DNA of 32,586 nucleotides, taken from Bdellovibrionales bacterium (GTDB lineage: Bacteria; Bdellovibrionota; FAC87; UBA2466). Shown piece after piece: positions 854 to 32,586 of this stretch (positions are counted from its first letter, which is position 1; every line of letters starts with the position of its first letter). The notes beneath the pieces were generated by a model that saw nothing but the letters and a program-made list of their open reading frames with translations, searched no databases and had not been told where the DNA came from. Position numbers and translations under genes: made by a program. The stretch lies in NCBI GenBank assembly GCA_005776395.1, contig SXPJ01000012.1, positions 1 to 32,586 of the forward strand, in the 5' to 3' direction.

Positions 854-862
854 GATCTCAAA
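854..862. repeat. Target site duplication, left copy (element copy 1)
   Basis: GATCTCAAA directly abuts the left terminal repeat and is repeated exactly at 1094-1102 beyond the right terminal repeat. A 9-bp perfect duplication at both borders shows that this unit moved as a transposable element. Confidence 0.8.
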
Positions 863-1093
863 CAGTAGTTCTCGGTGAGCCACAGTGCATAGTAAAAAGC
901 GGAGTCATTCAAGAATTTGGATATGAAAGTGGGGCGTACAGCGACTTTCCTTGGAGGCTGATAGCCCCACTTTCATATCCAAATTCTTGAATGAGCCACC
1001 CTAAAATTACCCCAATGGTACACCGAGACTTTGCGAAAAGATTTTTCTAGTGCTGCTCAATTAGCCTCAAAATTTATTCACCGAGAACTGCTG
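863..1093. mobile_element. MITE-like non-autonomous element, copy 1 (231 bp)
   Basis: Bounded by 16-bp terminal inverted repeats with one mismatch: CAGTAGTTCTCGGTGA at 863-878 and TCACCGAGAACTGCTG at 1078-1093. It is flanked by a perfect 9-bp direct repeat GATCTCAAA (854-862 and 1094-1102), the mark of transposition. No transposase fits inside. The centre is a hairpin with 30-bp perfect arms (905-934 and 965-994) around a 30-base loop. A second copy lies at 25874-26103 with similar ends, arms and flanks but with the loop inverted. A sub-terminal ACACCGAGACT (about 1021-1031) resembles the terminal repeat and could be a second transposase-binding site. The parent transposon family is not identified. 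Confidence 0.85.
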
Positions 1094-1102
1094 GATCTCA
1101 AA
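1094..1102. repeat. Target site duplication, right copy (element copy 1)
   Basis: Exact repeat of GATCTCAAA from 854-862, directly after the right terminal inverted repeat. Confidence 0.8.
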
Positions 1103-14274: not shown

Positions 14275-14326
14275 ACCACCAAAAGGTACCACCAAAAGGT
14301 ACCACCAAAAGGTACCACCAAAAGGT
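14275..14326. repeat. Tandem array, four exact 13-bp units
   Basis: ACCACCAAAAGGT is repeated four times head to tail (14275-14287, 14288-14300, 14301-14313, 14314-14326) without mismatch, making a GGTACC at each junction. It lies 170 bases upstream of prkA. Identical short units suggest slipped-strand change in copy number. The CCAAAAGGTA part resembles the CCAAAAGTAA in the adjacent hairpin. Confidence 0.85.
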
Positions 14327-16634: not shown

Positions 16635-16936
16635 ACATCAACTTTACGGTGAAAGTTTTAGGAGGTCTAATTAGCCACAGCCTTTTCGTAAAAGCAAGTG
16701 CTCTTATCACAGCGATTCTCGGTGAAGGGACTTGTTTTACTTAAAAATAGAAAAAGGGGATAAAAATCAAGGATAAATATAGTGATTTAGCCCCCTTCTT
16801 TCAAATAACTCATTGAAAAAATAAAATATTAACGCACCTGTGCCGACAGTATCGCTGGGTATTTACAGAATCGCCGTATTGATTCAGCGAAAACTGCTGA
16901 TAAAAATTGCAAACATGGTAAAATTATCAACTAATT
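16635..16936. other. Spacer without a recognised gene
   Basis: About 300 AT-rich bases between tRNA-Lys and the secreted unknown. It must hold the tRNA promoter on the minus strand; I see no clear -35/-10 pair. A short overlapping reading frame at 16840-17043 has no ribosome site and is out of frame with the gene at 16937. Confidence 0.4.
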
Positions 16937-25816: not shown

Positions 25817-25865
25817 ACTATTTCTGCAGTATACGGCGGGGCGACAAAAAGGCCAAGAAATTGCT

Positions 25866-25873
25866 TTAGCTCC
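25866..25873. repeat. Target site duplication, left copy (element copy 2)
   Basis: TTAGCTCC directly before the left terminal repeat, repeated exactly at 26105-26112. With the adjacent outer base (T here, G there) it would be a 9-bp duplication with one mismatch, matching the 9-bp size at copy 1. Confidence 0.65.
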
Positions 25874-26103
25874 CAGTAGTTCTCGGTGAGCCACAGCGCA
25901 TGGTAAAAAGCGGAGTCATTCAAGAGTTTGGATATGAAAGTGGGGCTACCAGCTCCAAGGAAAGTCGCTGTACGCCCCACTTTCATATCCAAACTCTTGA
26001 ATGAACCCTCATAAAATTACCCCAATGGCACACCGAGACTTTGCGAAAAGGTTTTTCTAGTACTTCTCAATTAGCCTCAAAATTTATTCACCGAGAACTG
26101 CTG
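25874..26103. mobile_element. MITE-like non-autonomous element, copy 2 (230 bp)
   Basis: Ends are CAGTAGTTCTCGGTGA (25874-25889) and TCACCGAGAACTGCTG (26088-26103), as in copy 1 at 863-1093. Flanks TTAGCTCC (25866-25873) and TTAGCTCC (26105-26112) form the target duplication; a 9-bp repeat would have one mismatch (T/G) at its outer base. The 30-bp arms of the central hairpin are at 25916-25945 and 25975-26004. The 29-base loop is the reverse complement of the loop in copy 1, apart from one base change and one single-base indel. There is no coding capacity. The outer segments have the same orientation relative to each other in both copies. No autonomous partner is present in the window. Confidence 0.85.
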
Positions 26104-26104
26104 G

Positions 26105-26112
26105 TTAGCTCC
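26105..26112. repeat. Target site duplication, right copy (element copy 2)
   Basis: TTAGCTCC one base after the right terminal repeat; matches 25866-25873. Confidence 0.65.

Positions 26113-30375: not shown

Positions 30376-32586
<2,211 letters not shown>

Follow-up and report, generated by a model that had tools for sequence, protein, structure and literature searches.

Repeated loop inversion and concerted arm evolution in the hairpin of a multi-copy bacterial MITE

How can the loop of a hairpin lie in opposite senses in two copies of a repeat that otherwise run in the same direction? The question is raised by two complete insertions in the window, the whole stretch of 32,586 nucleotides analysed here, each with 9-bp target duplications and each built around a long hairpin (Table 1). 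The sequence outside the hairpin is collinear between the two copies, which keep the same orientation, whereas the loop of the second copy matches that of the first only when reverse-complemented, the alignment then showing one substitution and one 1-base indel, and no more. The alignment score is 23 in this sense against -3 for the loop as it stands, and the best of 2000 shuffles reached 6. The initial annotation of this DNA had noticed the inversion, and in this it was right; the loop boundaries that it gave (935-964 and 25946-25974) deviate by about 1 nt, and each arm measures 31 bp rather than 30. As DNA, the hairpin of copy 1 folds at -37.8 kcal/mol (z -13.4), and copy 2 gives the same long hairpin with a z of about -13.

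Table 1. Positions of the two MITE copies of the window and of their parts
Feature	Position	Strand	Remarks
MITE copy 1 (231 bp)	863..1093	+	Loop in orientation A; TIRs CAGTAGTTCTCGGTGA / TCACCGAGAACTGCTG; about 40 genomic relatives
Left target-site duplication, copy 1	854..862	.	GATCTCAAA; same 9 bp at 1094-1102
Right target-site duplication, copy 1	1094..1102	.	9/9 match to left GATCTCAAA
Left hairpin arm, copy 1	905..935	+	31-bp perfect inverted repeat
Invertible loop, copy 1	936..963	+	Orientation A; 28 nt, GTACAGCGACTTTCCTTGGAGGCTGATA
Right hairpin arm, copy 1	964..994	+	31-bp perfect inverted repeat with 905-935
MITE copy 2 (230 bp)	25874..26103	+	Loop in orientation B, the majority orientation
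Left target-site duplication, copy 2	25865..25873	.	TTTAGCTCC; 8/9 match to right one
Right target-site duplication, copy 2	26104..26112	.	GTTAGCTCC; 8/9 match to left TTTAGCTCC
Left hairpin arm, copy 2	25916..25946	+	31 bp; A>G here, with matching T>C in right arm
Invertible loop, copy 2	25947..25973	+	Orientation B; 27 nt, TACCAGCTCCAAGGAAAGTCGCTGTAC
Right hairpin arm, copy 2	25974..26004	+	31-bp perfect inverted repeat with 25916-25946

The two insertions belong to a family represented in the source genome by about 40 copies, some of them partial (search of 2.76 Mb in 106 contigs). Complete copies are about 230 bp long, start with CAGCAGTTCTCGGTGA and end with the complement of CAGCAGTTCTCGGTGA, i.e., they have terminal inverted repeats (TIRs), and most of them are flanked by 9-bp target duplications matching at 9/9 or 8/9 positions. 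The element is a MITE: it is short, non-coding and dispersed, and it has the TIRs, the target duplication of fixed length and the multiple copies that define these elements in prokaryotes. It also shares with the prokaryotic MITEs covered by a review the capacity to form a stem-loop (PMC10969869). An Rfam search of the window returned one tRNA only and no RNA family for the element. The TIR and 73 subterminal bases also occur on several contigs where they continue into a partial transposase-like frame, and these contigs likely represent the autonomous partner of the MITE; a similar frame is present in one genome of the same genus. No complete autonomous IS with the ends of the element was found among the assembled contigs of the source genome. 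The partial frame, an N-terminal fragment, matches the Pfam family DDE_Tnp_1_assoc weakly (E=0.0036, below the cut-off), and a provisional placement from this weak match would make the MITE a non-autonomous, ISAs1/IS4-like element. The related genomes that were searched essentially lack it; their matches are scattered and are either TIR-like or limited to the right end, including three right-end resemblances of 71-74% in one relative (G006). Of the genomes compared, only that of this species thus shows the expansion of the MITE. The viral contigs searched gave no match to the loop, and 19-mer matches on scattered flavobacterial contigs, found in the search of genome contigs, were taken as chance or unrelated.

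The inversion recurs among the other copies. Loop orientation was scored in 36 copies, leaving aside L066, which is too truncated: 31 have orientation B and 5 have orientation A, the latter being copy 1 of the window (L001), three other complete copies (L002, L003 and L004) and the truncated L036. In a tree built from the outer sequence only (27 complete copies and 142 columns, arms and loop excluded), the four complete A copies appear as four separate terminal changes. The initial annotation had named a single lineage split as the pattern that would speak against a segment flipping independently of the element. None of 200 bootstrap trees has a single orientation change, and a single clade of A copies is rejected by the AU test (p=0.011 with the outer sequence, p=0.021 with the arms added). 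The tree is weak in places and has few strong branches, so that its starred branches alone require only two flips; three of the six pairwise tests among A copies fail to reject sisterhood, and recombination between copies could have scrambled the outer-sequence tree. The loop has turned relative to the element, and it has done so repeatedly and independently; the initial annotation had supposed from two copies that the segment between the arms flips independently of the element. Among the complete copies, the tree points to at least two independent flips, with four the most parsimonious number; for copies that are otherwise conserved, we estimate that the loop turned at least twice and probably four or five times.

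The closest pairs of copies in opposite orientations indicate where the change took place. The loop of L001 is identical, once turned, to that of its nearest relative L005 (orientation B), except for the 1-base indel of L001, and both have the same T variant. L002 and its sister L011 (orientation B) have identical loops after turning and identical arms, including a rare GATGTG/CACATC variant. Because these markers in loop and arms are common to L001 and L002 and to their B sisters, it follows that the loop turned in place, within otherwise conserved copies. L001, L002 and L003 retain target duplications matching at 9/9 positions, and their flanks have therefore not been exchanged, whereas L004 has no target duplication. 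When all loops are turned to the same sense, no other part of the element is as conserved as the loop, whose mean pairwise difference is 0.066 against 0.09-0.155 elsewhere.

The arms also change in a peculiar way: many of their positions vary between copies, while the two arms of a copy stay matched to each other. Counted over the 29 copies whose arms have no indels, 28 cells are altered on both sides (27 of them to a Watson-Crick pair) when 2.25 would be expected, and 34 are altered in one arm only. Placed on the tree, these amount to 17 complementary changes of both arms and 27 changes of a single arm. Coincident changes of both arms number 18 on the tree, against a mean of 1.5 and a maximum of 7 in 2000 random re-pairings; none of 500 shuffles reaches the observed covariation measures, and slid controls agree. 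One copy (L015) even lacks the same base in both arms. The arms thus undergo concerted evolution in the source genome. Selection on an RNA hairpin is not favoured as the cause: GT mismatches, GU in RNA, are not in excess of AC ones (15 vs 20), a pattern unlike that of RNA selection on one strand. Some copies have lost the hairpin (L030, L033, L034, L035 and L121, on contigs C24, C45, C41, C18 and C65). The deletion in L035 is bounded by GAGCCAC direct repeats that flank the hairpin, the kind of boundary that slippage at an extruded hairpin should leave.

Inversion of the spacer and homogenisation of the arms are together the prediction of inter-strand template switching, and this hairpin fits both signatures, since its loops are inverted between unchanged arms and flanks and its arms are homogenised. 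When a hairpin or cruciform forms during replication, the nascent strand could switch from one arm to the complementary arm of the opposite strand, read through the loop backwards, and then return in the second arm. Such a double jump would invert the loop and leave arms and flanks unchanged. A jump that does not cross the loop, within or between strands, would instead write a mutation of one arm into its partner and so keep the arms identical. In our view, loop inversion and arm homogenisation are best explained by template switches between strands where the hairpin is extruded, with a probability of about 0.76. We infer that polymerase strand switching caused the flips, and that these occurred in situ rather than during transposition. 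Retention of the hairpin might also reflect a role of flipping or extrusion in the life cycle of the element, for example if the orientation of the loop were reset at some jumps. This we hold to be highly improbable; if true, the hairpin would be processed in transposition and the MITE would carry its own small invertible segment.

Copies could also have exchanged sequence with one another. Under ectopic recombination or gene conversion, a copy would pair its left arm with the right arm of a different copy and take over the loop of the latter reversed, or a single ancestral flipped loop could have spread by conversion. With about 40 similar copies in the genome there are many potential partners, and the absence of a target duplication at L004 is what a crossover between copies would leave. 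Yet the perfect duplications around L001, L002 and L003 speak against such exchange, and so do the variants that tie loops to their own lineages: the loop of L002 lies between arms with the rare variant of its lineage, and that of L001 has the T of its own. Given these markers, imported tracts would need to be about 27 bp long, and we consider exchange between copies unlikely. The possibility that a short-read assembly graph was resolved with the loops reversed deserves attention, because the draft genome has 106 contigs and several of them terminate inside the hairpin. However, the contig ends of the pairs C82/C71 and C57/C7 have exactly 141 nt in common, which implies a final assembly k of 141; this exceeds the 90-nt hairpin, and single k-mers cover the hairpin with both flanks. 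Random resolution of the graph also predicts a ratio close to 1:1 instead of the observed 31:5, and L003 and L004 have an arm mismatch 2-3 nt from the loop that shortens the ambiguous repeat. An artefact of assembly is thus unlikely.

The initial annotation had offered two mechanisms for the flip, of which a strand switch during replication agrees with the data presented above. The other was a programmed switch, in which a tyrosine or serine recombinase would cross over at the arms. These are inverted repeats of about the length of a recombinase site, and the genome encodes three tyrosine recombinases, one serine recombinase and a weak fragment. But the arms contain no conserved site, being variable at many positions where both change together, and the non-coding element carries no recombinase of its own. 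A spacer of 27 bp is very short for the synapsis of two duplex sites, and the spacer here measures just that. The initial annotation had suggested looking for a recombinase near other copies; the few integrase or resolvase genes of the genome are on contigs C102, C8, C20, C19 and C14, and none lies within several kb of the copies found. The 31:5 ratio, with A copies that are singletons, resembles rare mutation rather than switching. Site-specific inversion is hence barely plausible.

Similar changes at hairpins are known from elsewhere. In chloroplasts, small (or minute) inversions flip a loop between inverted-repeat stems repeatedly and independently, and are homoplasious on trees (PMC2903610; PMC6824564). 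Among the loops of 4-24 bp that invert in Lauraceae, several change five to seven times on the tree (PMC6824564). The nearest known case in size is trnH-psbA, which flips within species and whose loop of 25-27 bp and stems of at least 18 bp nearly reach the dimensions of the MITE hairpin (PMC2903610). The initial annotation had called an internal invertible segment in a mobile element unusual, which was an overstatement, because chloroplast DNA hairpins provide classical examples of this flip at the same loop size (PMC2903610). Unlike the MITE, these are single plastid loci compared across plants, and not a multi-copy mobile element within one bacterial genome. In yeast inverted repeats, template switching yields both arm homogenisation and spacer inversion (Abraham & Hazkani-Covo 2021, PMC8604942). 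One mechanism accounts there for the two signatures, as we propose for the MITE; arms are likewise mostly perfect before the spacer inverts, and events are recurrent. The yeast repeats lie in coding genes and have arms of about 10-16 bp with spacers of 2-5 bp, against arms of 31 bp and a loop of 27 nt in the MITE. In rRNA and miRNA hairpins, with bacterial examples included, the inter-strand switch inverts the loop and gives compensatory changes in the arms (Monttinen & Loytynoja 2022, PMC8794818). Their loops typically have 4 nt, and up to 7-8 nt, and are under RNA selection, whereas the MITE lacks a GU excess. The much shorter loops published for yeast and rRNA (2-8 nt) count against the fit of template switching to the MITE loop. 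The type of mutation was therefore already known from chloroplasts, yeast and rRNA genes. As far as we could find, its setting in a multi-copy bacterial MITE has no earlier report: a term search of the MITE review (PMC10969869) turned up nothing on copies that differ by an inverted or flipped loop, and our literature searches on loop inversion in MITEs found no report.

A hairpin element in many copies provides replicate natural experiments, because all copies began from the same hairpin. Set against the divergence of the copies, the ratio between loop flips, paired changes of the arms, single changes and deletions of the hairpin makes template switching at natural bacterial palindromes measurable without selection on a gene product. 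Our results also call for caution in two respects. Compensatory changes in the hairpins of repeats need not imply an RNA function, and alignments and phylogenies of repeats can be misled by flipped loops.

The source genome contains other repeats related to the MITE. A second MITE family has the same TIRs and is a near-complete palindrome, with AAGGGACTTGTTTTACTTAAAAATAGAAAAAAGGGG arms and an AT-rich centre (C84:18556-18688, and on C82, C71 and C51); a degenerate member lies in the window at 16710-16899. The AT-rich centre is found in both senses. Since the family is nearly palindromic, the orientation of its loop is inseparable from that of the element. Another repeat, containing ATACCTGGCCCTCTATACTGTGTTTTTTGAGAGTTTTTTTGG, joins several copies of the first MITE (L038, L039, L040, L063 and L079, on contigs C12, C64, C14, C57 and C13) at one point, between TAAAATTA and either ATACCTGG or TATACCTGG, which suggests either that the element is compound or that insertion favours this site. 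Elsewhere in the window, the 13-mer ACCACCAAAAGGT occurs four times in tandem at 14275-14326, and after it comes the inverted repeat GGCTTTACTTTTGG / CCAAAAGTAAAGCC. At its end (32043-32586, - strand), collagen-like Gly-X-Thr repeats with a periodicity of 9 nt are fused to an RCC1-repeat domain, in a frame that runs past the end of the contig.
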